From the NCBI RefSeq assembly GCF_964204645.1, contig NC_134030.1:10352278-10416277 (forward strand): 64,000 nucleotides of DNA. Reading direction: 5' to 3'. A program made the translations under genes and the position numbers. A model generated the notes under the pieces. The model saw only the letters and a program-made list of their open reading frames with translations, was not told the origin of the DNA and made no database searches. Of the stretch, positions 17,401-60,272 are shown in pieces (the first letter of the stretch is position 1; each line of letters opens with the position of its first letter). The stretch comes from Tubulanus polymorphus (taxonomy: Eukaryota; Nemertea; Palaeonemertea; Tubulaniformes; Tubulanidae).

Positions 17401-20400
17401 ATAGCAGATCTCCGATAGGCTGGCGATTTTATTTCTGCGTATGTACAATTCCTGCAGGTGTCGGCAGTACTGAAACGGTTGCAGAGTCGTGATACTGTTC
17501 ACGCTGAAACGTATAATAAAACCGAAGACGTGGATATATTTCGCAGATCCGACATTATGCTACGCTGCTAAGCCTTACCGGAAGGATCAAATATTAATGA
17601 TTGGAAAATCAGTAATATTATTGCGTTTTATTCAAAAGTCCAAGTTGGCCATGTCTTCGTTAGGCACGTGAGCGCACAATTTCCTCATAGAATAGGTAGG
17701 TAAAGATTTAAGGTTTAGGATTAGGTTTCTATCTACCATTAGACCCAGTGTGCAGTTAGTTGTGGATTTAAACTAAATTCCATTTGATGCTTTCTTGTAT
17801 TTTTTTAAAGTCCAGCAACTTAATGCACATGCGTAACGTTAGTTAACAATCAGAATCATCGCCATATTGTGAAAATATCGGCTTCTTGGTGCAGACATAC
17901 ATGTAATTCTAAATGCCAGTGGCGCTTCTATCAAACTTAAGAGAACAGATCTACACAAAAAGATTAATGGTCCCATGTACCAGCAAGATGTGTAGGCGCT
18001 GAAGGTAAGGTTTGGGTATCACCCTCCCTACAAATATATTTGATAATTTGGTACGCCTATTTAGCAGGGAAATAATCCAGCCTTGTGCCGAAAAATGTGT
18101 GAGAACACGAATTACAAATCGTGTTTTCATCAGATCTTGCAGTAATCAGATTTCAGCACTCCAAGATCAGATAAGTTTACCTACCTCAGACTAACTATTT
18201 CTACTTGCTTCATCTTGCTAACTATTCCGATATCATCCAGTTCACTTGCCCTATAAAAATCAACAGATTGAGACATTACAATTCATTTCTTGCCACTCAA
18301 ATAGGATTTATGCCATTACTCAAAAGATCGAATGATTCATATCGGAAGGCGTTATTGAGCAGGGACGTACGAGCAAAGGCAGTACCGAGCAGCGATGTAC
18401 TGATCGAAGGAGATAATTTTATGAGGCCTGTATGGGATAGCAAGAGGCCCACGAAGCTTCGGTACTGATATTATAAATCGAAGGACATGTATCTTTCTTT
18501 AGAAGCGTTCTTTAGATTGATATGGAATAATCTTTTCAGAGAGGAACCGATGAATAATTTTGTTTACATTTTTTCAACTGAATGGATGGTAGATGTGCCA
18601 GGAACGAATGCTTCAGTTTGGTTTTTTTCCCAATGATTTATGCTAAATAAGTTACGGGACATGTCATGATAGATCTGCATTGAAGTTCTATTTCGACGCA
18701 GATGGAATGGTTAAACTTCGATTTTTCATGCTTAAAATTGCAGAATTTTGGTTTAAACTCTCTTGTGATGCATGATACATTGGATTCAGTTCCGATTCAA
18801 AAAACAAAACAATGAACAATAGCAACACTTCACAAAAGGTGAGAAGCGTTATTAATTGATCGATCTGTACCAGAAACTGAAACATCAATCTTTTATTTCA
18901 TTTAAAAATTCATAAGAAACAAATATTTTTCTTCCTATAATTCAACGTTTCAATAAAAATTCTCAGGCGCGATTCAGACAGTGGCACCGTAGGCAGGTGC
19001 TACCGGCGCGAAAATCTCGTGCCTTTTTTCATGCCCAAAGTAGAAAAGGGCACTTTTTTCCGAGACTAGACGTGAAATTTTAAACAAAAAGCACATAATT
19101 CTTCAAGATTTTGTCTTTATTGCCTGGAAACTAAATCTCAATGCAGTTAATTTGCTAGAAAGCACTGCGTATCAGGACTTTGATTGCTTGGAAATCGCAG
19201 CAAGAAAGCAGATTTCAAAATTGCAGAATGCCCTTTTTGTTTTGAAATACCCTTTTTATAAGTTAGTTGTTCTACCCTCGACACTGGTCCCTGGATCCGT
19301 CCCTAATTCATGACTCTATTCACTAACAGTTATACCCGCTACCATTCTCTGATTACAACAGTTTCTCATTGCCAGGAAGGAATTTGCTCGGGTAGTTCCT
19401 AAATAATTCCAAGTTAGGGCAATTTTCTATTGAAAATTTCATATCTCACTGAAAATAATAATAATATAGATTTGAAATAATTGAAAAGTCGAATGTCTTT
19501 TTAGACCAGAGCAAATTGGATTCAAAATTTAAAATATAGCTGTAAAGCAGCGATAACGGGTTTTCTACACGGTCTTGTTAGTATTATTGTTCTTGTCTGG
19601 ATAATGTGTCGACCACGATTGCTGACGCAGCGGCACCATGTTATCGAAAATGAAGGGAATTTAGAATCCAGTTCAACAGTCAAAACGGTTTTATAAAAAC
19701 AGTCTACAAATAGTAGATTAGGCCTGCTTGAAACCTATGGATGACTGGACCAGATATTTTGACTCTGGAAAATCGATCGAAAGGCCTATAGTCGTCTTGG
19801 ATTTAGAATAAAAGCATTTGATATGGTACTACATCAGCGATTACTAAACAAGCTATTAGGAAACGGCATTAATGATGGCCCTGATGAAGGCAGCTAATGA
19901 AAAGGTGTTTCGTGTCAAGATTTGCGTGGCAATGTCGGCAGTTTCAGTTGACATTAATTGCTCATTATCCTGAACTTTCTAGCTTACTCATATAAAGTCT
20001 CTTGTTATTTGGGAAATTTATCAACTCTCATTTCCTTTCCCTCTGTTTCTTCGTTTTCCTTTCCTTTCTACTGGGGCTTGCGACAGCGGACTTAAGGCTC
20101 TGCTTGGCCCACACAGAAAGCTCACTCTTTTTATAACCGTGCTTGTTTAGAAATTGTAAATTTTATTGTTTGCTTGTTTTTTCTCTCAATCTCTGCACAT
20201 AGCCTGTCATGCTTTCCATGAAATAAATTTGAATTTGAACATTTTCCAAATTGTGTCTAATGAGTGGAACCTTAAAAAAAGAGGTCAACGCACAGTCTAT
20301 TGAGGTAAATCTCTTCCTTTGGAGATTCCGAACCTCCAGGGTCAGTATTATTCCATAAGGTTATGAGACTAATAAGCAAATGGATGTTATGAATTTACTT

Positions 20401-23400
20401 GCCAAGAAAGCTGGTAAAGAGTAAGGGTCTATGTTGACGCTGGAACATACTGGTATAGATTTGTCATTGGCAAACAATGTGGGGACATAAAGTGGACACG
20501 GGCCTTCTTGCACATATAGCCGCGATCACACGGACACGATTTGGCCCAGTCCAAATTGGCACGGGTCAGGCGCGGGCCAAATTTGGCCCGTGCCTAATTA
20601 GAGAGCGCGTTCACACGCAAACCATTCACTCGATACTAAACAATGCTCAAACAAAGCGAAGTGGATCATTTCGGGTGCCAGTTGCAATTCAAACGCAATC
20701 ATTTGTCTGGTGCTAAAATTTGGCTTAGGCCTGATCCGTCCTGATTTGTGTGAACAGTTGTTCCGGGCCAAATTTGGCACAGGCCAAATTTGGGCCAGTC
20801 CAAAAATGCTCGTGTGATCGCGGCTTATAAGTCCCATACGTTCTGTTCGTCGATTCTCCAACATCTTCCGTTCTAAAATAGCCGAGACTTTTTGCTTATC
20901 ACACCCGTGAATACAATCTGAGACAGCAAGTGCTGCATTGAAGTGCAATTCATCTAAACGAGCAATAAAAAGGAGAAATTTGTTAGGAGAAACTCGTAGC
21001 AGATCCCTGGAATGACGATAAACACGCGTGGATTCATCAATGTTTATGGCTCGACAGCGCTTTCAAAATTTAGAGTAGTAAATATCCTGTGGATCGGTAA
21101 CATGTACTGATGAAGAATATCTATGGGTTATCGTTAAAACTACTGTTTGAAGACCGCGGCTGAATGTTTAATTAAGTTGTTTATTCATGCTTGAATTGAT
21201 AATCAAAGTGATGAGCAACCTGCGGTGGATTTCAGAATGACAACTCAGAAACCATGGCGACTCATCGAACAGGGCCCAATCTTTGATGTTGCCGGCCAGA
21301 CAGTGCTTTTGTAACGTTGATTCATCAAAATACGGATGAAGTATCTGTAGATCGAAGTGAGCTAAATAATATCTAACGGATTGTATCAGAAACAGCGGTA
21401 AGCCTATGCATTCTTAACGATAAATGTGTGGAATAAAATAACAATAATAATCACGAGAATAACAATAGGGTCTTCTGTGAAGAAATGGAAAACCCTTATT
21501 AAAATGTTATTTGTGAGTCACTATGCATTTTTAATGAAAAATGTGTGGAATAAAATAACAATAATAATCACGAGAATAACAATAGGGTTTTCTGTGAAGA
21601 AACGGAAAACCCTAATTAAAATGTTATTCGTGAGTCACTGTAACCAGTCCACAGTTGATATGGGTTCAAGTTTTCTGAAGTGAATCACACTTGAAGTCTA
21701 TGGTTATTTGACAGATTTTCGACAGCGGATTTTCATACAGAAATATTCACGAATTTCTCGTCCCAGTAAAAGATATATGTAAAAATTGACGACGCAATTA
21801 CACATTTCGAACTGCGCGAATATGTCGTATAGAAAATCCGTCTGTTCCGGCGGGATCGGTAAAAATGTGGTGATAGTAGATGGGAGCGTACATATCGCGA
21901 ACGCGAGCGAAACCGTTACGAGCATTATCGTCGTACGTTTCGATTTCGTCGTTTTCTGATCGGACGAGACGATTTTCGAACCTCTGAACAACTGAACTAT
22001 TATAACGGAATTCGACGAAATGATCAACGTTAACGGTATGAGGAAAACCTGGATGACGATTATGGAGAAAAACTTTTTTTGGTCGGATAATTCGTGGTAA
22101 CACCCGAAAAACCGGTCGGTGAAATGTATCGACAAAGCGGGGCTGAGGTATATAACCAGAAAATTTACTGCGGTGATTATCAATATGGTGAATCTAGCGA
22201 ATCTAGGTGTACATATCAAACGAGATGTGAACGGGAAGAGAACAACTGCCGCGCGTTCTAGAGATACGGCTACTAGTAACCACGCACTATCGATAACTGC
22301 GAGTTGTATTGTGAACTCATATATTTTACAACTGATCAGCGAATTCATGATGAATATCGGACCGTCTTTAACGTACATGAGAACGAACTGTAAAACGGGC
22401 GTCAGCGTATAGTTGACGCAGACTGCGAAATCGTTGAGCGACAAAACGACGAGATAGTTAGCGTAAGATAAACCGCGGAATCTGCGATTTATCATTATCA
22501 GGAAAGTAGCCGAATTTCCAAACGCTCCGAACAGGAACACGACAGGCAGAACGGCCAGGAACGCAGTACGGTAGATTCTGGACTTGTTCACCACGGACAT
22601 GAGAACTATGTAACTATGAAAAGTTCGACCGATTTGCATCTGAGTAGAATTCATGATTCATGACAATTAATTGTTGAATGTATAAGCAGACCGACGCAAT
22701 ATTCTTGCGACAATTTGTTCGTAAGATTCATTGTTTGTATCGAATTAAAAATCAATTCTCAGAAATCTAACGCAATTTACTCAGATTTCGTGAAAGTTTA
22801 TTATCGTGTAAAATATAAATGGAACTAAATTTAATGTAGATATTCGTTGTACAAGAATTCATTGTAAATGCTGAAGCCAGGAGTTCTCAATTGGTTATTA
22901 CAAAAGAGGCATTTTCTATTTTCTATTTGAAGAATTTTTCTACAAGAAGTGTAAAATGTTTGATGGATTTTTTCACGATATACCGAAACAATGAATCGGT
23001 CAAACTCCAACATTAACAGTGGCAAATAAAGCTGTATCTTCACTCTGAAGTGAAGATACGAGATATCACTGTTAAGTCAAAAGAACCGACTTGAGCAGAG
23101 TTTACTGTACCATCCAACTCAGATATCGCTCTCAAGTCAAATAGTCCGACTTGAGCGGAATGTCTGATCCAACTCAGATCACTCTCAAGTCAAATGATCT
23201 GACTTGAGCGGAGTCTTCTGTACCATCCAACTCAGATATCACTGTCAAGTCAAGTGATCTGACTTGAGCGGAGTCTAATGTGCCATCCAACTCAGATATT
23301 GCTCTCAAGTCAAATGATCTGACTTGACCGAAGTCTACTGTACCATCCAACTCAGATATCGCTCTCAAGTCAAATGATCTGACTTGACCGAAGTCTACTG

Positions 23401-26400
23401 TACAATCCAACTCAGATATCGCTCTCAAGTCAAGTGATCCGACTTGAGCGGAGTCTATTTTATCATCAAACTCAGATATATAGAAACTTACCACGGAAAA
23501 ATGGATTATGCAATTCATGTAATGTCATTGAAGACAAGTTCCACTTGTTTAATTAGAATATATACAATTAAATGATATTAGATTAGACTTGTTCAAAACT
23601 GTGAAATGATATTTACCCAGAATCTCCAAACTGGGACAGCCTAGGAAGTCATAAACAATGATACTATTACTTGATCAAGTTTATGATTGATTTTCGGTGT
23701 ATCTTGGTATGAATATAGCACTGGGTAGTTCTCTGAACATGGAAATCGGAGTCCCCACAGATCAGTCATTCTAGAATTCAAGGACTTTTCAAGGAGAAAT
23801 TTTCAAATTTCAAGGATTGTATGTATCAGTTCCATATCCCAATTACAGTACACTCCTCCTTAGTCAGTTCTGTTTATCTCAGTTAACTGTTAATTCAGTG
23901 ACTTAGTAGGCAAATACAATCCTTTACACAAACTAAACTCTGGTTTTAATTCAGTAACCGCCTAAACCATTTAATTCCATGTAATCTGCGTGTATTAGAC
24001 GACTACTAGCCTAACTAGATGGTACTACGAGTTGAAGTTACTCAGTTAAAGTTTGAAATCAAATTTTTGTATCCAGAACTGTGGAACTGGATCCAGGACT
24101 GTGGGACGGTGGAATTTGATTCAGAACTGTGGAATTAGATCGAGAACCTCTAAATTGAATCTAGAACTGAGGAATTTGATCCAGAACTGTGAATAGAAGG
24201 CCTGATAAAACAATACCTAAATGGTCCTGATAAATGACTGCCGTAATCAAAGAACTGATTGTTGATAGGCCTAGCTGGTTATTTTAGTTTTTAGTTTAGT
24301 TTAGTTTATTTTGCTCAACAAAAAGACATTTCCTTAGAGCACAGAAAAAAATTACAAAATTACAATTCATGTGTGAAAACATACATAGATGGGCAAATTA
24401 CATAAACATACGTATATAGACATAGACACCATAAATCTAACCTATTACCTTTTGGACACTACTGGTACCGTTGAAGCGTGGCGATTGCTTAACCCTTTAA
24501 CCGGCAAGTATTTTTCGGCCTATGAGAGATTTTGGACCTTGCAAGGGGAAAACTTAATAACTCAGTAGATATGAGGGATAACCCCATACTGCATGTTTTT
24601 ATGAAAGCTCTTTTCACATGCTTTCAAATGATACCATGTTTGCGAACTTTGAGAGTTACCTTCAGGGTCTGATCCCAAGGTCACAGATCCCAAGGTCATC
24701 CAGATTTTTGGGCTACCCTTCATCCCAATATGAATTATCATCAGAATCTTTCATTACCATGTCCAAAATATCAGCCAAACTCACTAGAGAACGTCTTTAG
24801 TGCATAGGCCATTACTACTAACGATCAGTGCTTCACCTAGCCAAAAATAGAAGGGCTGTCCGCCCTGCCCCCGAAAATAACCGCCCTTGTGCCCTTCAGA
24901 TGTGTCCCATGCTCGCCCTTGTGCCCTCATCACTTGCCGTAGGTCCGCCATCCTGCCCTTGTCAGTCACGAGTAATGAGTCAGGGCTTTCAAAATAAGCC
25001 GACGCATCCGACTGTTAGTAAGTTTCCTGCGACGGCTATGAAATATCTCGTATGATATCAACGATAGTAGCTCATGTGATCAGTGGTTATATTCAAATCT
25101 ACTGCAGTCAGGGCCAAATTCGGTTTTCGTATCTAGTCGACTAGTGGTCGGAACTAATAACCGAATGCGCTTGATTTTCGAACTATTTCCGGAATATAGT
25201 TCCGACTGACGGACATTCGGTTTCCTTGAGTTCAACTATAGTCGACTAACTCAGATAACCGAAGGTGGCCCTGTGTGCCATCGTGTGAAAACGTGCCTCA
25301 GACGCGTGGCCTAGTTTAAGTTTCCAGGAAATTGGCTGACTTCCAAACTACTGCCAATCATTCTAGCGACTGCTGTTGTAAAGCTGGTAGTGTATATTCC
25401 ATGGATTGTTTCGTTTAGAACACATCGTGATGCTCTGGATCTTTTTATCTAGACTATTAGACAAATTTTATATATACAAGGTGAAAAACTTTGTTGCGTG
25501 AACTCACAGAGAGACTCCCACAGACAATTAGTTTGAGTAGCCTAATAGCAGTAATGTGTTCTTAAGCTGGCTGCTTACCAATTATCAACAGTTACTTGCC
25601 AATCACTAACACTATCAATTTAAATCAATTAATTTGATATTTCTAAGATAAAAAATATGCAATTTCATGTAGGCCTATACACTATTGCTGGTTCTTTTTC
25701 GCTGTATTTGCTACTTGAGCTTTTTTCTGCAATTTTTTTGGTCTGTAACTGGTTTTCCAAATCATTTTGAAAGCCCTATCTAGATTAACTTCTGTTCACA
25801 GGCATAGGTGTAAGGATGTACTGTGGTCAAGTGTGTCACTCATGGCAAAATCAGAGTTAAACATAGTTTCTAGTCCTCAATCGTAGTAGGGGGTACCTCG
25901 ATTCTATGCAATAGGGGACATCGCAGTTTGCCCCTAAAACAGACGTGAGCGCATTATAATGTGCCCTTGCTCCGATGGAATCACGCACAAAAATGCCCTC
26001 ATTTGAAATCAGCACCCTGCCCTTTTTTAATGCAAGATGAAGCACTGAACGATATTCTCAATTTTGGAAATCTGACCCACGTGACATGTGGTTTCCATAC
26101 CCCCTTCTACATGCCAAATGTATGATATATCACTTTCCAACCTTGTTAGACATTGTAGGCCGTCTGGTGTCGCCATCTGCTGATAGGAAAATGAGTTAGA
26201 ATGCTTCACCGAAATCTATACTTGACTATTCTATTCACTATAGCTGGTCTATTCAAATGGGTCGCTAGCGACCGATTGCCATTTAAAGGGTTAAGACAAA
26301 AGTATGGGCTAGCCTTCTTTATAAAATGAGCCAGATTTATTAGGGTTTGTTCGTGGATTTAGTCACACCACACCTGAATGGTCACCACACCGAACTGTCG

Positions 26401-29400
26401 ATCTTCAGTGGTCTAGTAGTTGCCATACCCGAGTTCAAATTCTTTTGTAATAACGAATTGGGAACTCCTGGCTTCAGCATTTACAATGAATTCTTGTACA
26501 ACGAATATCTACATTAAATTTAGTAGCGCATATATACTTTACGCGATAATAAACTTTCACAAAATCTGAGTAAATTGCGTTATATTTCTGTGAATTGATT
26601 TTTGATTCGATGCGAACAATAAATCTTACAAACAAATTGTCGCGAGAATATTGCGTCGGTTTGCTGATACATTCAACAATTAATTGTGATGAATTATGAA
26701 TTCTACTCACATGCAAATCGGTCGAACTTTTCATAGTTACATAGTTCTCATGTCTGTGGTGAACAAGTCCGGAATCTACCGCACCGCGTTCCTGGCCGTT
26801 CTGCCTGTCGTGTTCCTGTTCGGAGCATTCGGAAATTCGGCAACTCCCTGATAATGATAAATCGCAGATTCCGCGGTTTATCTTACGCTAACTATCTGAT
26901 CGTTTTGTCGCTCAACGATTTCGCGGTCTGCGTCAACTATACGCTGATGCCCGTTTTACAGTCCGTTCTCTTGTACGTTAAAGACGGTCCGATATTCATC
27001 ATGAATTCGCTGATCAGTTGTAAAATATACGAGTTTACGATACAACTTGCAGTTATCAATAGTTCGTGGTTACTAGTAGCCGTATCTCTAGAACGCGCGG
27101 CAGTTGTGCTGTTCCCGTTCACATCTCGTTTGATATGTACACCTAGATTCGCTAGATTCACCATATTGATAATCACTGCTGTAAATTTTCTGGTTATATA
27201 CCTCAGCCCCGCTTTGTCGATACATTTCACCGACCGGTTTTTCGGATGTTACCACGAATTATCCGACCAAAAACAGTTCTTCTCCATAATAGTCATTCAG
27301 GTTTTCCTCATACCGTTAACGTTGATCATTTCGTCGAATTCCGTTATAATAGTTCAATTGTTCAGAGGTTCGAAAATCGTCTCGTCCGATCAGAAAACTA
27401 CGAAATCGAAACGTACGACGATAATGCTCGTAACGGTTTCGCTCGCGTTCGCGATATGTACGCTCCCATCTACTATCACCACATTTTTACCGATCCCGCC
27501 GGAACAGACGGATTTTCTATACGACATATTCGCGCAGTTCGAAATGTGAAATTGCGTCGTCAACTTTTACATATATCTTTTACTGGGACGAGAAATTCGC
27601 GAATATTTCTGTATGAAAATCCGCTGTAGAAATTACGTCAAATAACCATAGATTCCAAGCATGATTCACTTCAAACAACTTGAACCCATATTAACTGTGG
27701 ACTGGTTACGATGACTTACAAATTACATTTTAATTTAGATCTTAAATTATTGACTGGTTGCAGTGACTCAGATATTACATCATAGAACATGTCATGAGCT
27801 ACAACTTTTCCATTGATAATGGTAACAAAATATGCCTAGGTGCCAATACAATAAGGGAATACTTATGTTATTGTATTGTTCAACGCCCCCTGGTATATAC
27901 GAATTACCTGGCCATATACAAAATCCAATGACCTTGAATCTCACCACAATTATAGACCATGTCTTGAGCTACAACTTTCCAATTGATTGTGGTAAGAAAA
28001 TATGCATAGGTACGAATATAATATGGAAATACTAAGTTATTGAATTGTTCAACGTCCCATGGTGGCCATTTACAAAACCAATGACCTTAAAACTCACCAC
28101 ATTCATAAAGCATGTCAGCAGATACGATTTTGTAATTGATTGTGGTAACACACTATGCCTAGTTACCAATATAATATGGAAATACTAAGTTATTCTAGTT
28201 ATTCAACGCCCCCTGCCATATGCAAAGCCCAAAGACCGCGAAACTCGCTTAATTCATAGAACATGTTATGGTAATGAGCTACAACTTTGCAATTGATCAT
28301 GGTAACAAAATATGTCTAGGTACCAATATAATAAGGAAATACTAAGCTATTCTACTTATCAACGCCCCCTGGTGACTATATGGAATAATTAATTACCTTG
28401 AAACTCACCGAAATCATTGAACATGTCATGAGCCATAACTTTTCAATCGATTGTGGTAACAAAATATGCATAGGCACGAATATAATATAGAAATACTAAG
28501 CAATTGCATTGTTCAATGCCCCTGGTGGCCATATACAAAAACTTATGACCTTGAAACTCACCACAATCATAGAACACGTTATAAGCTACAACTTTCCAAT
28601 TGATTTTGGTTACAAAATATGCTTAGGTATCAATATAATGTGGAAATACTTTTTTCCACCTACAAATGAACTGATGACACCAAGATGGCCGCCAACTGCG
28701 TCATAAATGGCTGATCAAATTACCAGTCACAGGTATAAAAGATCTCTTCCCAAAGAATACCCATCACAAATTGCAATGAAAACTGGCAAACCCTTAGGAA
28801 GTTACGGGACTCAAAATTGACATCTTTGGGCACAAAAAAGGTCACAGGAAAGCCATCTTGAGTCCGATCGACCCAATTTTTCTAATGCTGATGGGCCCTT
28901 GGGATTTACAAATATATCTAAAAGATCAAGGTAATTGATCAAAGCATCTTCAAAATTTCCCTCGAAAACTTCAACAAGAGCCCCAAGGGGCACAATGGCC
29001 AGCCTGTCAGATTTGCTTTTTATAAATGATGTAATCTGTGGGTTATATTTATCAATATACACTCCCTGCTCAATATCATTTACATAGTAAAATCGTGTGT
29101 TAACACAGACAGCAGGAACGAATGTAATATAGAAATACTAAGTTATTGTATTGTTCAACGCCCCCTGGTGGCCATAAAAAAACCAATGAGCTTGAAACTC
29201 ACCTCGATCATAGAACATGTCATGAGCTACAACTTTCCAATTGATTATAGTAGCAAAATATGCTTAAGTATCAATTATGATGTGGAAAAACTTTTTTTCC
29301 ACCTACGAATGAGTACTGATGACCCCAAGATGGCTGCCAAGTGCGTCATAATTGCCTGGTCAAAAATACCCTCTCGGATATAAAAGATCCCTTTCCAAAG

Positions 29401-32400
29401 AATACCCATTACAAATTGCAATGAAACATGGCGCACCATTAGAAAGCTACAGTACTCAGAATTCAGGCCAAAATTGACATTTTTGGGAACAAAAAAGGTC
29501 ACAGTACGGCCATCTTGAGTCCGATCGACTCAATTTTTCTCATGCCGATGGGCCCTCGGGGGATACAAATATATACGAATGATCAAGGTTATTGATAAAA
29601 GTGTCTTCAAAATTTCCCTCGAAAACTTAAAAAATGTGTAAAAAGTGCTGATTTTTGCGAACAACAATGGCTGCCAGTCGGCCATCTTGAATCTGACAGG
29701 GCCAGTTTTTGGCCTGAAGATGTGTCTAGGGTAGATACACGTATAAAACAAATATCAAGACATTATCTTGAAGCGTCTTCAAAACTTTGGAACTAACACG
29801 AACTATGTAGATGGTTATCTCTCGACCTCAAAAGCTTCAAGACCCATCTCAAAACAACTTTGTTCCATGCAGCATACCATTAACTCTCGGAAAGCGAATT
29901 GTATTTAACATTTTTTGGCAGAATAAAATTTGATTGAATTTGCAATTCGGGCACATGGCTAATTGGCATATCAAGGTCATACACCCGATTTGGTAAAACC
30001 TTTTTTCGCGAACCTTGCGCAATTGTCAAGGATGAATTTTCTGTAGAGCAAATAAAAATTCCTCCCAAACAACAAATCAACTAAAGATTTCATAGAAATC
30101 GATCTTGAAATACAATTTTAAATCTTAAAATAAAACCCGGAAGTAAAACAGCAGACGATACCGCGGATTCACGTGAACACCTGATTTCTGTAAACGAAAT
30201 GTTGGTTGTGACAAAATTGTTCAGACGGTTTTAGGTGGTAATAAGTACGGAAACGTAACAACCATGGTCGACTTATTCGATGAAATCAGGCCTATGTGAT
30301 ATCCAAATTTTGACTTTTTTATTCTCCAGACCTCCCTGATATAGAAATAAAAGATTTTGGTGGTACGAAAGTGCAATCACAGCGCCGACGGGGACAGAGC
30401 CGTGTCAGAGATCGGCGGAGTGAAAATTGAGGTGGACGAACACGAAGAAGTAGGCTATTGCGCTACTTGAATCACGAAAACTCCTGGCGCGGCCCCGACG
30501 CTTTTCGTTGATTAAGTAATACAAATATCATGCAATGGGTTTTCACAATCTACCGCTGGTATTTACCGGATTTCAATATCACTCCAAAATTCAAAGAAAC
30601 CTCGAAATATCGAACCGGAACACTTCCGGTAGATATCCGCGGCTGCCCAACCGGGAAACTTATTTGTTTCAATAGATATTGATAGGATCCATCATCTTCA
30701 CCCGTCAAGGGATTCGAACCCACTAAGCTAAAGCCATGCCAGAATCGGGTCGGGCCAATCACAGCGCTTGTAACAAACCACATTAGGCTTCTGTGGAATT
30801 TCCCAGTAAATGGGCCAATCAGCAAACACGTAGCGAACGCGGAAGTATTGTCGCGTGTTGATACATGACGTCATGCGCAAAAGCGCCAGTAATGAAATCG
30901 CGATAATTCACGTGAACAGCTGCTGATATTTTCAGATAAACCAATCACAGGGAAGACACAACTTCCTGATTGGCTGATAAAAATTGAAATTTTCCCGATT
31001 TAACTTTCGTGAAAAATACAGAAAACATTTTTATGAGACCCTATTTCAAAATTCTGCTCGCTACGATTCCGAGAATGGATTACGCTTAAATACGTGATTT
31101 GTTCGAATATGCCCTCACTTGGCAAGCAAAAGAGCCTTTTGTGTGGAAAAAATGTCATTTAAATTCGCTCCATTTGTATAGAAATAGGCTCAGCCTACGG
31201 CTGGCCTAAAAATGTGTAAAAAGTGCTGAATTTGGCAAACAACAATGGCTGCCAGTCGGCCATCTTGAATCTGAGGGTCAGTTTTTGGCTGAAGATGTTT
31301 CTAGGGTAGATACATGTATGAACCAAATATCAAGACATTGCCTTGAAGCGTCTTCAAAACTTCCCAAAATAACTGGATTCCGTCTACGGACAACGGACGA
31401 AAAGTGAATGCAATAGCCCGCTGGGACTTAAGTCCCAAGTGGGCTAAAAAGGGCATTCTGAAACTTTGAAAATCTGCTTTTTGCTGCAATTTCCAAGCAA
31501 TTCAGTCCTGAAACAAAGCGCTTTCTAGCAAATTAACTGCTTTGAGATGTAGTTTCCAGGTAATAAAGCCAAAATCTTGAAGAATTATGTGCTTTTTGTT
31601 AAAATTACCTACGTCGTCTTCTAAAAATGTTTTTGAGATTTGACGGTAGCACGTGCCTATGGTGCTACCGTCTGAATCCGCGCCTGCATTGTTTTGTGAA
31701 TCAAACATTTGAAATGAACATAGAACTGAATAGAACTGAGCAAGTGGGTCCAGTTCCATACAGTTCCCACTTGAAATTTGAAAGTTGACACATAGGAAAA
31801 GAATTGATTTTAACTTTCTTTGTTTTCTTTTGTAATTCAGATTGGAAGATTTTGTCTAAAAAAAGCGTAAAATGTTTGATGGAGTTTTTAGCCATTTACC
31901 GAAACAATCGGTCGAACTCCAACTTTTACACCAGTAAATAAAGCTAAGCCGCGATCATTCACTCGATATTAAACAATGCTCAAACAAAGCCAAGTGGGTC
32001 ATTTCCAGTAACAGTTATGTACCAGTCAATGTGCCTCGTACATTTACTGCAATGAATATGAAGCACCAGATTGGCAATGATACACTATGTAGGGTTATGT
32101 AGCCTAGTGAAAATTAGTATAATAGAAAATGTCTTGTTTGTAATAATGAATTGAAAACTCCTGATTTCAGCATTTAAACCTACAGCGAATTCTTGTACAA
32201 CGATGATCTAAATTAAATTCAGTAATGTTTAAATCTTACACGAAAATAGACTTTCACGAAACCTGAGCAAATTGCGTTAGATTTCTGAGGATTGATTTTC
32301 AATTGGACGCGAACAGTAAATTTTAACGAACAAATTGTATGTAGAATATCGCGCCGGTCTGCTGATACATTCAACAATTAATTGTCATGAATAATACTCA

Positions 32401-34592
32401 GATGCAAATCGGTCGAACTTTTTACAGTTACATAGTTCTCATGTCTGTGGTGAACAAGTCTGGAATCTACCGTACCGTGTTCCTGGCTGTTCTGCCTGTC
32501 GTGTTCCTGTTCGGAGCATTCGGAAATTCGGCAACTTTCCTGATAATGATAAATCGCAGATTCCGCGGTTTATCTTACGCTAACTATCTGGTCGTTTTGT
32601 CGCTCAACGATTTCGCGGTCTGCCTCAACTATACGTTGATGCCCGTATTACAGTTCGTTCAGTACGTTAAAGACGGTCCGATATTCATCATGAATTCGCT
32701 GATCAGTTGTCAAATCTACGAGTTTACGTTTCAACTAGCAGTTATCGATAGTTCGTGGTTACTAGTAGCCATATCTCTAGAACGTGTGGCAGTTGTGCTC
32801 TTCCCGTTCACGTCTCGTTTGGTATGTACACCGAGATTCGCCAGATTTACTATATTGATAATCATCGCAGTTAATTTTCTGGTAATATACCTCAGCCCCG
32901 CTTTGACGATACATTTCACCGACCGGTTTTTCGGATGTTACTACAAACTATCCGACCAAAAAAAGTTCTTCTCCATAACCGTCATCCAGGTTTTCCTCAT
33001 ACCGTTAACGTTGATCATTTCGGCGAATTCCGTTATAATAGTTCAGTTGTTCAGAGGTTCGAAAATTGTCTCGTCCGATCAGAAAACGACGAAATCGAAA
33101 CGTACGACGATAATGCTCGTAACGGTTTCGCTCGCGTTCGCGATATGTACGCTCCCATCTACTATCACTACACTTTTACCGATCCCGCCGGAACAGACGG
33201 ATTTTCTATACGGCATATTCGCGCAGTTCGAAATGTATAATACTGTCATCAACTTTTACATATACCTTTTACTGGGACGAGAAATTCGCGAATATTTCTG
33301 TAAGAAAATCCGCTGTAGAAATTCATTCAAATAACTATAGATTTCATTACATTTTAATTCGAATTCCAAATCTAATTTGCATGGTTTAAAAAAATACAAC
33401 TGTTCAATTATTTCAAATCTATACCATCATAATTTTGGGTAAAATATGAAATGGAAAAATGCCCTAACTTGAAAATAACTGCTAATAAATAGAGTCAAGT
33501 ATTCTTATTCAAACGTTGAATTACAGGTACATTAACCATTCCATCTTCATCGAAATAGAATTTGAATGCTACTTACTAGGCCTAAAACCTAAATGTTTTC
33601 AAATTGCCAGTTTCTCAATATTCACAGAGTTTTCAAGGACTTTTCGGCATTTTGTTCATGAATTCAAGGATATTCAAGGACCTTGAAAAGCATTTTTCGT
33701 TTAGCAGGAGTTTTCAAGGAATCATGAAGTCGTTGGGACCCTGAGTTGGAATGACGGAAACCGAATAGCGGACGGAGTATCTATCAAAAGGCGGAATGGC
33801 GAAAAACTATGTTGCAATTGTAATAACTAATTACTCATTTATCTGGTTTTTACTGCACGCTACTAAGCGCAGAAAACAATAAACCGGTCGGTGAAATGTA
33901 TCGACAGGGCCGAGGCAGATGAGGTATATAACCAGAAAAAGTCTACTGCGGCGATTATCAATATAGTAAATCTGGCGAATCTTGGCGTACATATCAAACG
34001 AGATGTGAACGGGAAGAGCACGACTGTCGCACGTTCTAGAGATACGGATACTAGTAACCACGAACTATCGATAGGCCTAACAGAAATACATCATCTTCAA
34101 GAATCATCTTACTTGAAGCAGATTTGACCATCAATAATTACGTTAGGCCTACGAGCTATTGAAGTAACATACCTATCGAACAATCTGACGAGAAGTTGGC
34201 TCCCTTGTCTTAAATTCGGTACCTAGGGGTCAAAAACTTTTTGCATTTTCAGGCCCCTTGTTTTTTTTTCTTTATATAGGCCTAGAACCTATGATACTGG
34301 GGTCAAAATTGTATGTGTTTAAGGCCCCTACGGGCAGTGCAGCTTGCTATAGGGGCTGCAAATGGAAACATTGCTTACGACTACTGCTGCTAGCCACCAC
34401 AGTATTTGCCAAATTTGGGCTGTTTGTTTCTCTTTCCGTCAGTATTTAGGCCTATTTAAAATCAACACGAACACTAACAGTCATTGAACATAACAAATCC
34501 TGAATAACTTACCAACAATTCAGTTTTTTGACGCTTTCTAAATCTGACGCTCTTGTTCTGGCCAGTACCAGGTCTTCAGTTAATTTCGGCAT
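14477..34592 (-). CDS. CFAP410: CFAP410 (C21orf2), cilia protein (complete, six exons, 16-kb first intron)
   Basis: CFAP410 is a small leucine-rich-repeat protein of the ciliary base that works with NEK1. Exons in transcript order: 34592-34513, 18250-18185, 17503-17280, 17183-17024, 16462-16369, 14614-14477. All phases agree, giving 253 aa, the family length. Exon 1 encodes [20 protein letters not shown] and ends at VKKLNCW, the family N-terminus. Exon 2 gives [20 protein letters not shown]. Exon 3 holds the LRRs ([46 protein letters not shown]). Exon 4 starts [12 protein letters not shown]. Exon 5 is lysine/serine rich. Exon 6 gives the C-terminal helix [19 protein letters not shown]. The first intron (18251-34512) holds four copies of an intronless GPCR and much repeat DNA. 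The phase match of the distant exon 1 (TG joined to G for tryptophan) and its sequence make the long intron firm. Confidence 0.93.
15644..16050. mobile_element. Nonautonomous hAT-like element
   Basis: Bounded by CAGGGTGGCCACT at the left and GTGGCCACCCTG at the right, the inverted ends typical of many hAT-type elements. Inner sequence repeats ATTCCCTGA motifs. A clean 8-bp target duplication was not seen. It lies in CFAP410 intron 5; a second copy is at 56454-56745. Confidence 0.6.
16600..16815 (-). repeat. Copy of the GCCGCGATCACACG MITE
   Basis: Contains GGCACGGGCCAAATTTGGC, the AATTAGAGAGTGCGC block (as complement) and ends GTGTGATCGAGGCTTTAA. It is the reverse orientation of the better-preserved copy at 20518-20825. 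Confidence 0.6.
18960..19290 (+). repeat. Dispersed repeat, copy 1
   Basis: About 300 bases starting near CAGGCGCGATTCAGACAG, with CAAGATTTTGTCTTTATTGC. The same sequence appears inverted at 31395-31690. Both copies are in the first intron of CFAP410. No coding capacity seen. Confidence 0.55.
19700..20250 (+). mobile_element. LINE retrotransposon remnant
   Basis: At about 19800-19860 one frame reads [15 protein letters not shown], matching the reverse transcriptase block that follows the first catalytic aspartate in non-LTR elements. The preceding residues are broken by drift. About 400 bases later the sequence ends in AAATAAATTTGAATTTGAA, like a LINE 3' tail. The element is short, decayed and not coding now. 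Confidence 0.45.
20518..20825 (+). mobile_element. MITE with AGCCGCGATCACACG terminal inverted repeats
   Basis: Exact 15-bp ends: AGCCGCGATCACACG at left, CGTGTGATCGCGGCT at right. The flanks are TAT on both sides, consistent with a two- or three-base target duplication. The inside carries GGGCCAAATTTGGC palindromes. Further copies: 16600-16815, 47545-47770 and a fragment at 31948-32010. It is noncoding although it gives spurious open frames. Confidence 0.75.
21423..21640. repeat. Tandem duplication, two units of about 115 bp
   Basis: Two nearly identical units begin ATGTGTGGAATAAAATAAC and contain CACGAGAATAACAATAGGG. It lies just downstream of the minus-strand GPCR. Confidence 0.85.
21704..22654 (-). 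CDS. Class A (rhodopsin-like) GPCR, intronless, copy 1
   Basis: A 316-residue seven-helix receptor in one exon. TM1 carries G46-N47-S48, TM2 has N74-D75 (LSLND), and C109 and C185 can form the usual disulphide between TM3 and the second outer loop. TM3 ends S-L-E133-R134-A in place of DRY, TM6 has AICTLP (C255, P258), and TM7 has N290-F-Y-I-Y294 in place of NPxxY. Loop 3 is short and basic (KTTKSKRTT). The ligand is unknown; a peptide or chemosensory role is a guess from general family look. The gene sits inside intron 1 of CFAP410 on the same strand. It is about 91% identical by hand count to the copy at 32387-33334 (27 substitutions and a one-residue gap). The start ATG is supported by the equivalent start in the other copies. 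Confidence 0.9.
   Translation of the reverse strand: MNSTQMQIGRTFHSYIVLMSVVNKSRIYRTAFLAVLPVVFLFGAFGNSATFLIMINRRFRGLSYANYLVVLSLNDFAVCVNYTLTPVLQFVLMYVKDGPIFIMNSLISCKIYEFTIQLAVIDSAWLLVAVSLERAAVVLFPFTSRLICTPRFARFTILIITAVNFLVIYLSPALSIHFTDRFFGCYHELSDQKKFFSIIVIQVFLIPLTLIISSNSVIIVQLFRGSKIVSSDQKTTKSKRTTIMLVTVSLAFAICTLPSTITTFLPIPPEQTDFLYDIFAQFEMCNCVVNFYIYLLLGREIREYFCMKIRCRKSVK
22655..22890 (-). promoter_or_regulatory. Conserved 5' flank of GPCR copy 1
   Basis: About 230 bases upstream of the start match the upstream regions of the other two receptor copies, including AATTAATTGT just before the ATG and GAATTCTTGTACAACGA further out. Likely promoter duplicated with the gene; no TATA box is claimed. Confidence 0.5.
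23050..23480. repeat. 60-bp minisatellite, about seven units
   Basis: Units repeat CATCCAACTCAGATATC and GTCAAGTGATCTGACTTGAG with few changes. Each unit holds a 9-bp inverted repeat, CTCAAGTCA against TGACTTGAG. Because 60 is divisible by three, the minus strand stays open across the array; this is judged to be chance, not a gene. Confidence 0.85.
24490..26295. mobile_element. Host element interrupted by a nested insertion
   Basis: Left end TTAACCCTTTAA and right end TTAAAGGGTTAA are inverted. Removing the inner insertion (24827-26047) joins two halves that flank AACGAT. No transposase could be read, so it is nonautonomous or decayed. Confidence 0.5.
24827..26047. mobile_element. Nested insertion with CAGTGCTTCA ends
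   Basis: Ends CAGTGCTTCA and TGAAGCACTG are exact inverted repeats, and AACGAT lies directly outside both, as a target duplication. GCCCT-rich blocks are near both ends (for example CCGCCCTGCCC). The inner kilobase has no long open frame. Confidence 0.6.
26430..26695 (+). promoter_or_regulatory. Conserved 5' flank of the GPCR pseudogene
   Basis: Matches the upstream region of copy 1 almost base for base (GGAACTCCTGGCTTCAGC, then ATTAATTGTGATGAATT), and more loosely that of copy 3. Confidence 0.5.
26696..27645 (+). pseudogene. Class A GPCR pseudogene, copy 2
   Basis: Collinear with the intact copies from its ATG to its original stop codon. Two breaks are visible. One base is missing in TM1 near 26845-26848 (ACTCCCTGA where the intact copies have ACTTTCCTGA), which shifts frame and stops at 26849-26851. 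A second lesion makes TGA at 27547-27549 in TM7, where copy 1 has a cysteine codon. Between them the frame is clean and includes S-L-E-R-A and the TM6 block, so inactivation looks recent. Plus strand, opposite to its host gene CFAP410. Confidence 0.9.
27775..29300. repeat. Tandem array of the CGCCCCCTGGT unit (about 155 bp)
   Basis: Six adjacent units (27775-28670) and a further one (29110-29300) share CATGTCATGAGCTACAAC, ATTGATTGTGGTAACAAAAT and CAACGCCCCCTGGTG, with spacing of 150-170 bases. The gap between holds another repeat (see 28700-29800). Noncoding. Confidence 0.75.
28700..29800. repeat. Local duplication of a GGTCACAG/TCCGATCGAC repeat
   Basis: Sequence at about 28720-29030 (AAAAAAGGTCACAGG, TTGAGTCCGATCGAC, TTCCCTCGAAAACTT) recurs at 29370-29640. 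The next block (GTGTAAAAAGTGCTGA) recurs at 31204-31365. Noncoding dispersed repeat. Confidence 0.6.
31395..31690 (-). repeat. Dispersed repeat, copy 2 (inverted)
   Basis: Reverse complement of the 18960-19290 repeat, sharing AATAAAGCCAAAATCTTGAAG and TGGTGCTACCGTCTGAATC. Followed at 31735-31765 by a piece of the CAGTTCCA MITE. Confidence 0.55.
32130..32386 (+). promoter_or_regulatory. Conserved 5' flank of GPCR copy 3
   Basis: Shares GCGAATTCTTGTACAACGA, TGAGCAAATTGCGTTA and CAACAATTAATTGTCATGAA with the other copies. More diverged than those two are from each other. Confidence 0.5.
32387..33334 (+). CDS. Class A (rhodopsin-like) GPCR, intronless, copy 3
   Basis: Intact 315-residue receptor, paralogue of the minus-strand copy at 21704-22654. 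It keeps GNS in TM1, LND in TM2, the disulphide cysteines (SCQIYEF and FGCYYKL), S-L-E-R-V after TM3, ICTLP in TM6 and the atypical N-F-Y-I-Y in TM7. It lacks one codon before YVKDGP, and TM7 differs at two cysteines (Y and T here). Differences are spread over the protein, several in the outer loops. It lies in intron 1 of CFAP410 but on the opposite strand, so it must have its own promoter. Ligand unknown. Confidence 0.9.
   Translation: MNNTQMQIGRTFYSYIVLMSVVNKSGIYRTVFLAVLPVVFLFGAFGNSATFLIMINRRFRGLSYANYLVVLSLNDFAVCLNYTLMPVLQFVQYVKDGPIFIMNSLISCQIYEFTFQLAVIDSSWLLVAISLERVAVVLFPFTSRLVCTPRFARFTILIIIAVNFLVIYLSPALTIHFTDRFFGCYYKLSDQKKFFSITVIQVFLIPLTLIISANSVIIVQLFRGSKIVSSDQKTTKSKRTTIMLVTVSLAFAICTLPSTITTLLPIPPEQTDFLYGIFAQFEMYNTVINFYIYLLLGREIREYFCKKIRCRNSFK
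33883..34076 (-). pseudogene. GPCR fragment, copy 4 (TM3 to outer loop 2)
   Basis: The plus strand reads CCGGTCGGTGAAATGTATCG and on to CACGAACTATCGATAG, the antisense of the receptor segment from TM3 to outer loop 2. A small insertion near 33905-33920 disrupts it. Only about 190 bases remain. It lies about 440 bases from exon 1 of CFAP410. Confidence 0.85.
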
Positions 34593-36309
34593 ATTGAAAT
34601 GAATATTCACATTTGAGCTCACAGACCACTATTCGAAAATCTTCTATATCCTATAGTAAAGACAAGAAATTTGAGCGTTTAGTTCACATATAAGCGCGTA
34701 TAAATCCAGGGGAAATCATGCTTTTCATGGCTGCTAGGCCAGCATCTTAAGATGCATTCAATGATAATAATAATTCAAGCACTCAAGTGGTTTTCGCCCT
34801 ATACCCAATCTAAATTTTGATATCATCAGTTTCTTTAGAGTGGGGTATCCCTGCGCAGGTATAGGCCTACCAGTACATGTGAGCCGAATATTGAAGCGGA
34901 TCGTGGTATCCTTACTCCAGACAAAACCAATCTAGGGAACCCCTCGTCTGAATACCAGTCATTGTTACAGGTTGTTTGGGGAACAACGGCTAGATACTAG
35001 ACTACTTTCTTTTTTTTTAGTAGGAATGTCTGTCCGCTGGGATGTCTTCCAGGCCATATGTGACAGGATCATCGTGAGCAGTGCCTTAAGTGTGTCGACA
35101 TGACTCCAGTTAAAAACTGCTGGGTCCAATCTAAGGCAGCGCTTGTCTGATTGCCCGGGACAAGTTTATTCTCATCAGGGCAAATAGGTTATCATTGAAT
35201 ATATACTGCGATGACAACGTAAGCGCGAATTAGTGTCGCAGAGGTGTGTCGTGTGTAAATGGCATGCGGGACCGGACAAGAGCATTGATCGATCTCCAAC
35301 CCGCTTACAATCTCGCGTTCATTTGCCCACCAGACTTGTTTTAGTGCAATTTTATGTCTCAAAGCTAAAGCTTTTTTCCACTCAATAGAAAGGATTATCG
35401 TGCCACCAGTCGGACTGCCTGTGATGTTGTAAGGTCAGTTGATTTATGAGGGGCGAGCGAAATTTCAGATATGCTTGTCCAGGGCCAGAGGCCAAGTCAA
35501 GTGGCTTTTGTTTTTCTTTTGAACTGTTTTTCCTTGACCTTATCGACATCGAATCCCGAGAGATGTCTCAATACGTCATACAACCTTAATTTGACACCTA
35601 TCCTATTTGTAGAACTATGACAACATTTATGGGGGATCTCTTTTTCATTCTGAAACTATTTTTGATCCTGCCTAGCGCATCTTGGAGCTACTAACCTAAT
35701 CAAATACCAGACTCATTCATCAAGATTTATGGATTGATGTCTGTCTGCAGACATCTGTCTGTTTCCAGAACCTGTCATGTCAGGTCCCGAAAAAACCCAA
35801 ACTCATGACAATATTTGACGAAACGGCGAAATATCTAGGCATGTGCTAGACGAATGGAAGAACATTTTGAGTTGAATGAATATTCTGACCCGTCGTTAAT
35901 ATCGAAAATGATTCAACAATAACGATAAGGAAAATGTTCTGACAAATAATTCATTTGAAAGGTTGATTTATAAGAAGAAAATATTTATGTGTAAACTATG
36001 ACTTATTTCTGTATTAAAGGGAAAAAATAAGTTTCAGGCATAGATGAATTAATTAATGTAGAAGTAAGAGCACATTATAAGAGAATATTTTCGCTAGATG
36101 AATCGAGGTCTTGATATTTCGTTTCCGCAATAAGACACTGAAAATTATCTGCTCACTATCACAGTTCGGCAACACTCCTCACTGTCCTGAAGTCCTGAAG
36201 TCTCACTATTTATATTCATTGTCTTTATGATGTACATGTAAAAGAGCCGAATGCAATATAGAGACTGATTTTATTGAGACTGATTTTAAATCAACTCATC
36301 AATTTAAAG
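34593..36309. other. CFAP410 upstream region
   Basis: Should contain the CFAP410 promoter. No exon, strong promoter motif or named repeat was recognised. At 35775-35795 the sequence CCTGTCATGTCAGGTCCCGA resembles the hairpin core of the neighbouring satellite. Confidence 0.4.
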
Positions 36310-39118
36310 CATGAAGTTTTTCTTCTATCTATATCAGTTTTAATGCAGACCTGTCGCCACAGGTCCCGAGAAGCTCTGTAAAATGGCGCGAGCTGCCGTG
36401 TGAGGTCTCGCTTCAAAATTATTGTTTTATAGTAACTTAAGATTAACTATATCCGTGGTTAGCAATCTACATTATATTCATTACCATAAAGATACCATAA
36501 AAAGTGAAGTTTTTCCCAATTCATCAGTTTTAATGCAGACCTGTCACCACAGGTCCCGAGAAGCTCTGCAAAATGGTGCGCGTTGCCGTGTGAGGTCTCG
36601 CTTCAAAATTATTGTTTTATGGTAACTTAAGATTAACTCTATCTATGGTTAGCAATTTATATTATACTTATTACTATATAAAGGTTATAAAAAGTAAAGT
36701 TTTTTCCATTTCATCAGTTTTAGTGCAGACCTGTCACCACAGGTCCCGAGAAGCTCTGCAAAATGGCGCGAGCTGCCGTGTGAGGTCTCGCTTCAAAATT
36801 ATTGTTTTATGGTAACTTAAGATTAACTATATCCATGGTTAGCAATTTATATTATACTCTTTACTATAGAGAGACCAGAAAAATTAATGTTTTCCTTCAT
36901 TTCATCAGTTTTAATGCAGACCTGTCACCACAGGTCCCGAGAAGCTCTGCAAAATGGCGCGAGCTGCCGTGTGAGGTCACGCTTCAAAATTATTGTTTTA
37001 TAGTAACTTAAGATTAACTATATCCATGGTTAGCAATCTATATTATATTCATTACTATAAAGATACCAAAAAAGTGAAGTTTTTCCGATTTCATCAGTTT
37101 TAATGCAGACCTGTCACCACAGGTCCCGAGAAGCTCTGTAAAATGGCGCGAGCTGCCGTGTGAGGTCACGCTTCAAAATTATTGTTTTATAGTAACTTAA
37201 GATTAACTATATCCATGGTTAGCAATCTATATTATATTCATTACTATAAAGATACCAAAAAAGTGAAGTTTTTCCGATTTCATCAGTTTTAATGCAGACC
37301 TGTCACCACAGGTCCCGAGAAGCTCTGCAAAATGGCGCGAGCTGCCGTGTGAGGTCTCGCTTCAAAATTATTGTTTTATGGTAACTTAAGATTAACTCTA
37401 TCTATGGTTAGCAATTTATAATATACTTATTACTATATAAAGGTTATAAAAAGTAAAGTTTTTTCCGTTTCATCAGTTTTAGTGCTGACTTGTCACCTCA
37501 GGTCCCGAGAAGCTCTGCAAAATGGCGCGAGCTGCCGTGTGAGGTCTCGCTTCAAAATTATTGTTTTATGGTAACTTAAGATTAACTCTATCTATGGTTA
37601 GCAATTTATAATAAACTTATTACGATATAAAGGTTATAAAAAGTAAAGTTTTTTCCATTTCATCAGTTTTAGTGCAGACCTGTCACCACAGGTCCCGAGA
37701 AACTCTGCAAAATGGCGCGAGCTGCCGTGTGAGGTCTCGCTTCAAAATTATTGTTTTATAGTAACTTAAGATTAATTCTATCCATGATTAGCAATTTATA
37801 TTATACTCTTTACTATAGAGAGACCATAAAAATTAATGTTTTCCTTCATTTCATCAGTTTTAATGCAGACCTGTCACCACAGGTCTCGAGAAGCTCTGCA
37901 AAATGGCGCGCGTTGCCGTGTGAGGTCTCGCTTCAAAATTATTGTTTTATAGTAACTTAAGATTAACTATATCCATGGTTAGCAATCTATATTATATTCA
38001 TTACTATAAAGATACCATAAAAAGTAAAGTTTTTTCCATTTCATCAGTTTTAATGCAGACCTGTCACCACAGGTCCCGAGAAGCTCTGCAAAATGGCGCG
38101 AGCTGCCGTGTGAGGTCTCGCTTCAAAATTATTGTTTTATGGTAACTTAAGATTAACTCTATCTATGGTTAGCAATTTATATTATACTTATTACTATATA
38201 AAGGTTATAAAAAGTAAAGTTTTTTCCATTTCATCAGTTTTAGTGCAGACTTGTCACAACAAGTCCCGAGAAGCTCTGCAAAATGGCGCGAGCTGCCGTG
38301 TGAGGTCTCGCTTCAAAATTATTGTTTTATAGTAACTTAAGATTAACTCTATCTATGGTTAGCAATTTATATTATACTTATTACTATATAAAGGTTATAA
38401 AAAGTAAAGTTTTTTCCATTTCATCAGTTTTAGTGCAGACTTGTCACAAGTCCAGAGAAGCTCTGCAAAATGGCGCGAGCTGCCGTGTGAGGTCTCGCTT
38501 CAAAATTATTGTTTTATAGTAACTTAAGATTAACTCTAACCATGGTTAGCAATCTTTATTATATTCATTACTATAAAGAGACCATAAAAAATGAAGTTTT
38601 TTCCATTTCATCAGTTTTAATGCAGACCTGTCACCACAGGTCCCGAGAAGCTCTGTAAAATGGCGCGAGCTGCCGTGTGAGGTAGCGCTTCAAAATTATT
38701 GTTTTATAGTAACTTAAGATTAACTATATCCATGGTTAGCAATCTATATTATATTCATTACTATAAAGATACCATAAAAAGTAAAGTTTTTTCTATTTTA
38801 TCAGTTTTAATGCAGACCTGTCACCACAGGTCCCGAGAAGCTCTGCAAAATGGCGCGAGTTGCCGTGTGAGGTCTCGCTTCAAAATTATTGTTTTATAGT
38901 AACTTAAGATTAATTCTATTTATGGTTAGCAATCTTTATTATATTCATTACTATAAAGAGACCATAAAAATTAATGTTTTCCTTCATTTCATCAGTTTTA
39001 ATGCAGACCTGTCACAGTGGTGTTTTATAGTAACTTAAAATTAACTCTATCTTTGGTTAGCAATTGATATTATACTCATTACTATAAAGATATACTATAA
39101 AGAGACCATAAAAATGAA
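36310..39118 (+). repeat. 190-bp satellite array, about 14.5 units
   Basis: Units repeat TCATCAGTTTTAATGCAGAC, GACCTGTCACCACAGGTC, AAAATGGCGCGAGCTGCCG and GGTAACTTAAGATTAACT at a period of 190-191. Each unit opens a short ORF of 65-69 codons starting MFY. Since 190 is one more than a multiple of three and the units overlap, these are judged not to be genes. The last unit (from about 39006) lost its middle. The array fills most of the space between the divergent CFAP410 and TMEM245 genes. Confidence 0.95.

Positions 39119-39481: not shown

Positions 39482-60272
<20,791 letters not shown>

Follow-up and report, generated by a model that had tools for sequence, protein, structure and literature searches.

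Receptor genes nested in CFAP410 intron 1 look like a by-product of the spread of a very large single-exon GPCR family in Tubulanus polymorphus

Several GPCR genes lie in the first intron of CFAP410, a cilia gene, in Tubulanus polymorphus. Does this nesting tie the receptors to the cilium, or is it what a spreading gene family leaves behind? We addressed the question in the window, by which we mean the whole 64,000-nucleotide stretch of DNA analysed. An earlier note on this DNA had offered two readings, one in which nesting couples receptor and cilia gene expression and one in which the intron is simply permissive. It had also joined exons 1 and 2 of the host in phase across the intron, and they do join where it placed them, in phase 2 across 16,262 bp. 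The host gene was modelled as follows:

34592-34513, minus strand: CFAP410 exon 1 (coding), with its ATG at 34592 and a GTAAGT donor, inside the one-piece alignment to 8axj_A
18251-34512, minus strand: CFAP410 intron 1, 16,262 bp, phase 2, GT-AG
18250-18185, minus strand: CFAP410 exon 2, with a TTTTTATAG acceptor, placed by a genome match, the 8axj_A alignment, and splice and frame
17503-17280, minus strand: CFAP410 exon 3 (LRR), placed by profile and by frame and splice fit
17183-17024, minus strand: CFAP410 exon 4, placed by frame and splice fit, within the span aligned to 8axj_A
16462-16369, minus strand: CFAP410 exon 5, placed by splice sites and frame only
14614-14477, minus strand: CFAP410 exon 6, the C-terminal segment and stop, placed by splice site and frame

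The intron had been said to hold two intact intronless receptors, one broken copy and one fragment, in both orientations. Open reading frames and alignments confirmed this inventory:

21704-22654, minus strand (the host strand): receptor A, an intact intronless rhodopsin-class GPCR of 316 aa; Pfam 7tm_1, 64.4 bits
21614-22907, minus strand: copy unit of A in common with B, from 253 bp 5' of the ATG to ~90 bp past the ORF, 94% identical and with abrupt ends
~26696-27645, plus strand (opposite to the host): receptor B, a pseudogene whose frame is shifted by one base near 26846 and interrupted by TGA at 27547-27549
26441-27735, plus strand: copy unit of B, homologous to the unit of A
32387-33334, plus strand (opposite to the host): receptor C, an intact intronless rhodopsin-class GPCR of 315 aa; Pfam 7tm_1, 66.1 bits
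32121-33346, plus strand: copy unit of C in common with A, 89.9% identity
33881-34073, minus strand: receptor fragment of 193 bp, 87-89% identical to A, B and C (88.6% to A), left out of the tree

Receptors A and C both exceed the Pfam 7tm_1 cut-off of 30.5 bits, which places them in class A, and each lies whole within a single host intron, as nested genes do. The match of C to A (E 4.6e-181) excludes chance. By sequence, the solved structure nearest to the nested receptors was galanin receptor 2 (E 8.9e-11); a structure model was poor (mean pLDDT 60.8). An Rfam scan of window positions 17000-40000 gave no match at E ≤0.1. The intron also carries tandem arrays, with units of 153 bp and 60 bp, at 27909-28650 and 23061-23479, beside receptors B and A. 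A relative of the sequence beside B was found at L020:4197-5139.

The nested receptors belong to a much larger family. With receptor A as query, at least 126 scored genome matches were found among those listed (1,864 first-look candidates), all with at least 68% identity. These 126 were spread over all 12 large contigs (C1-C12, together ~262 of 268 Mb) and contig C40, and 123 of them had no stop. A distant member used as query also gave at least 126 listed matches, from 1,949 candidates, and more than 20 of these were absent from the listing for A. We then counted a 26-base signature that 81 of the 82 copies examined carry with ≤3 mismatches. At the same tolerance it occurs at 421 places in the genome (181 forward and 240 reverse), and its reversed control at none. 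The family therefore has at least 421 genomic places, broken copies included. At 100-kb linking, the 126 listed matches fell into 59 groups, the biggest with 11 members, and 36 copies were solitary. Between 6.8 and 8.1 Mb of contig C2 the family members are dense and, among the matches listed, mostly stop-free.

The canonical motifs of class A receptors are E/DRY, CWxP and NPxxY. In 37 aligned copies of the family, the motifs read ERA or ERV, CTLP or FTLP, and NFYIY, and eight residues were invariant (E133, R134, P207, P258, N290, Y294, C109 and C185), which we take to be class A landmarks. Substitution rates show purifying selection, with no relaxation in the nested copies on pairwise averages, because dN/dS was 0.10 (A/B), 0.22 (A/C) and 0.24 (B/C) within the cluster, against a median of 0.30 among the other 79 copies (3,081 pairs). 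The corresponding dS values were 0.14, 0.19 and 0.18 within the cluster and a median of 0.50 elsewhere; between A, B or C and the other 79 copies, median dS was 0.72-0.80. A large single-exon gene set under purifying selection is what marks a chemoreceptor-type expansion, and class, family size and selection together suggest a putative role of these receptors as sensors of external chemicals or peptides.

How the cluster arose was read from a tree of 82 copies, 79 fetched from the genome plus A, B and C. The three nested copies formed one clade with a support of 1.0, which suggests a single arrival followed by short-range copying within the intron. The node next to this clade had a support of 0.30, too low to place its sister, and the outside copies closest by plain identity (L001 and L002, on contig C2) did not fall within the next larger groups of the tree; for both reasons any source named for the founder copy would be tentative. 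None of the sequences examined showed an empty insertion site. Receptors A and B lie 4.3 kb apart in inverted orientation. Their homology stops sharply at -253 and at ~+90 while still at 94% identity, so the copied piece was short; the abrupt ends rule out a long segmental or head-to-tail duplication for this pair.

We consider it likely that the locus is a nested-gene arrangement of the usual kind, arising from the dispersal of a very large family of class A, chemoreceptor-like GPCR genes with a single exon. One family member would have entered CFAP410 intron 1 on a short DNA segment, together with some upstream sequence of its own. This founder would then have been copied at least twice within the intron, in both orientations, and one copy decayed. 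The decay is plain in receptor B; the direction and order of the copying, like the single arrival, are the course that the clade and the unit ends favour. The receptors are most likely separate transcription units that are removed with intron 1 from the CFAP410 transcript, and the host presumably tolerates them since no exon or splice site is touched.

The route by which such pieces travel was approached through the ends of the homologous unit, in 33 copies with 780-bp flanks (1056 ordered pairs). Homology was lost less than 40 bp past the last codon in 979 of the 1056 pairs and persisted for more than 100 bp in 8. On the upstream side it extended for a median of 206 bp (upper quartile 291 bp), and fell below 50 bp in 376 pairs; the copies therefore lack a common upstream end. 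Some of these upstream matches may have been broken by length changes of a minisatellite: a repeat of ~19-20 bp (CTCAGACAGTCAGTACACT-like, by eye), variable in copy number, sits between the shared upstream block and the ATG in one group of copies, for example L034, L047 and L055. By eye, over 60 rows (58 fetched copies plus A and C), differences in the distance from block to ATG came mostly from this minisatellite. The nearest sampled relative was on another contig for 47 of the 82 copies. For the other 35 it was on the same contig, against a mean of 9.5 after shuffling, and in 17 cases it was within 100 kb; local copying therefore also occurs. Taken from alignments, these patterns suggest that what is copied is short and ends sharply on its 3' side, and that it moves by a route that we leave unnamed. 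The combination of a sharp 3' end, no poly(A) and nearest relatives often on different chromosomes is the most unusual feature of the family.

A bolder reading, possible but on balance doubtful, makes the receptor gene a mobile cassette. Such a discrete unit, ~1.2-1.5 kb long, would break off sharply at its 3' end just past the stop and would usually bring a few hundred upstream bases with it. Hundreds of copying events, between chromosomes and into introns, would have placed it in both orientations and without poly(A); the upstream sequence could let copies work anywhere. A promoter role of the upstream block is putative. As a constrained promoter the block did not stand out: over 666 pairs of 37 copies its divergence had a median of 0.251 and that of fourfold sites a median of 0.265, and it was the less divergent of the two in 398 of the 666 pairs, in a comparison biased toward conservation in that 45 of the 82 copies had been dropped for lack of a near-full-length block and 149 of 286 columns were kept.

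Dispersal as reverse-transcribed mRNA, with one copy landing in intron 1, would account for single-exon genes over all large contigs and for the common 3' end. We think this unlikely. No poly(A) or A-rich stretch followed the 3' end in the 33 copies (A fraction 0.28-0.39 per 6-base bin from +30 to +149), no target-site duplication was visible by eye at A or B, and upstream homology stops at variable points. The 60 rows were searched, as a test for retroposition, for a 5'-UTR intron that some copies have and others lack; none was found, nor was there an intron-bearing relative among the copies inspected. The poly(A) tract and target-site duplication expected of a retrogene were thus not seen in the copies inspected for each; old copies could have shed them. 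Alternatively, gene conversion confined to the genes could keep them alike while their flanks drift; at A and B, the abrupt ends of this young pair argue against it.

Nesting was also looked for elsewhere in the genome. Among the 126 listed matches, the copy nearest to the window outside it lies at C6:10338134-10339081 (L019:5857-6804), ~13 kb past the left edge. On one side it is flanked by same-strand Sel1-repeat exons at L020:6997-7218 (PF08238, 41.9 bits) and L020:6250-6528 (27.2 bits, below the cut-off of 30.7). On the far side are same-strand exons at L019 ~3113-3007 and 2849-2722, for which Pfam gave no match and, for ~3113-3007, PDB gave nothing useful; we take them to be SEL1L3-like. 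This receptor probably sits inside a Sel1-repeat gene. An open frame with a reverse-transcriptase match lies near this copy, at L020:558-2717.

A copy counted as isolated if no other of the 126 listed lay within 200 kb, which held for 29 of the 126. We sampled 13 of these 29, taking every other copy in genome order and leaving out the last two of the series (on C11 and the short contig C40). A codon score, trained on 609 codons, served to rank the flanking segments, and Pfam was run on 22 of them, taken from 11 of the 13 loci, with none from L081 or L083. One copy was shown to be nested. It lies at C8:2048261 (L089:3457-7062), between same-strand exons of a cytosolic carboxypeptidase-like protein 5, which match residues 132-217 (E 0.0023) and 275-333 (E 7.7e-10) of that protein; the second exon also matches Peptidase_M14 (25.2 bits, cut-off 21.6). 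With 5 kb per side and few segments, the survey is insensitive and the nested fraction of 1 in 13 is a floor. The neighbours of the sampled copies included ELO, P450, BCAS2, ribosomal L16, guanylate cyclase, sulfotransferase and reverse transcriptase, as well as a TPR exon of IFT80/172 type, another 7tm_1 gene and a weak, below-cut-off match to VKGC.

Nesting is therefore probably not special to CFAP410. Since other genes host at least one further copy, and probably a second, nesting looks like a by-product of the spread of the family and not like a special link between receptor and cilium. Of the two readings in the earlier note, the permissive intron fits better, given the at least 421 places, the single clade, and the copies in the carboxypeptidase and probable Sel1-repeat genes. 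The special link found no support, with the family at so many places and with other copies in other genes (one shown, one probable).

In its functional form, that link would be an open chromatin domain of ciliated cells in which chemosensory receptors and a ciliogenesis gene can be co-expressed. Two of the three hosts, CFAP410 and the cytosolic carboxypeptidase, are by function what we take to be ciliary or microtubule genes, and the exon matching the IFT80/172 TPR is within 5 kb of a further sampled copy. A set of three hosts is too small, though, and the third is the probable Sel1-repeat gene; other neighbours (ELO, BCAS2, ribosomal L16, P450 and sulfotransferase) are presumably not ciliary by function, and two of the four nested pieces are a broken copy and a fragment. 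Overlapping genes are co-expressed above expectation in human cDNA libraries, according to PMC2330155. We nevertheless regard such coupling as very unlikely, and nothing in the analysis would require the expression of receptors and CFAP410 to be coupled.

The host gene model is well supported, with the splice from exon 1 to exon 2 predicted from sequence. The six minus-strand exons give a single open protein of 253 aa; their introns 1 to 5 measure 16,262, 681, 96, 561 and 1,754 bp. Residues 4-133 of the joined product (exons 1-4) align unbroken to PDB 8axj_A (E 1.2e-25), the top hit of 93 PDB sequences with E ≤0.001; the runner-up was a general LRR protein (E 2.3e-19). Exons 1, 2 and 3 have one match each in the 268-Mb genome, exon 2 at just E 1.9e-4, and the remaining three of the six genome matches to CFAP410 exons lie elsewhere, at 33-42% identity. 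The product of exon 6 is presumed to resemble the human CFAP410 C-terminus. The window has zero N letters and sits on a 23-Mb contig. An artefact, with exon 1 taken from another gene or a contig misjoined, might be suspected from an intron 1 of 16,262 bp beside four others of 96-1,754 bp and a splice read from sequence, and is hardly credible when the residues of exons 1-4 are collinear with 8axj_A, exon 1 matches the genome once, no N occurs across the window, and phase and splice sites agree.

Repeats of other kinds lie around CFAP410. A dispersed repeat copy (34612-34945, ~310-330 bp) has at least 41 other scored matches among those listed, mostly at 71-74% identity over its length and at ~92% over the last 90 bases. 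Because it ends ~20 bp upstream of the CFAP410 ATG, the 5' region of the gene looks repeat-derived. Fourteen tandem copies of a 190-bp unit (36333-39015) separate CFAP410 from the next gene, a multi-exon membrane-protein gene on the plus strand (39482-53848), divergent from CFAP410. We take this gene to be TMEM245-like; Pfam gave no match for three pieces of it.

Several known systems resemble parts of this locus. 8AXJ is the N-terminal domain of Trypanosoma brucei CFAP410 (PMC11865075); the protein described there and the one modelled here share the N-terminal LRR domain, as aligned over residues 4-133, whereas the gene here differs in a 16.3-kb intron 1 occupied by receptors. Nested genes are described as common in animals (PMC2330155; PMC13309782), with Syn-Timp an example from a metazoan host intron (PMC2330155), and PMC2330155 also reports that gene overlap is selected against overall, same-strand overlap most. 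Like the nested genes of that account, the receptors are complete genes in one host intron, on either strand; here, instead, one intron holds several members of a single large dispersed family. The surreal-GPCRs of sea urchins and the ApORs of the crown-of-thorns starfish are, by description, similar in being large lineage-specific rhodopsin-class sets with bidirectional clusters, thought to be chemosensory (PMC5442662). According to that source they often form tandem arrays, whereas 36 of the 126 listed copies here are solitary at 100-kb linking. The AcCRb genes of Aplysia are likewise described as intronless and rhodopsin-like, some clustered and some with stops (PMC2700072). They encode 319-364 aa and are called lineage-specific in that paper, which gives 38 full-length genes, against at least 421 places here, broken ones included. 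Nested genes and large single-exon chemoreceptor-like families are thus both already known kinds; no description of receptors within CFAP410 was found in the open-licence literature searched.

The nesting is real and has an ordinary explanation; its moderate interest lies in how large the family is and how it spreads. It cautions against over-reading one nested cluster, and it shows that a large receptor family can land in unrelated genes without a functional link. If true, spread as discrete units would make this family a usable system for the dispersal of single-exon receptors in animals, which is usually credited to tandem duplication.
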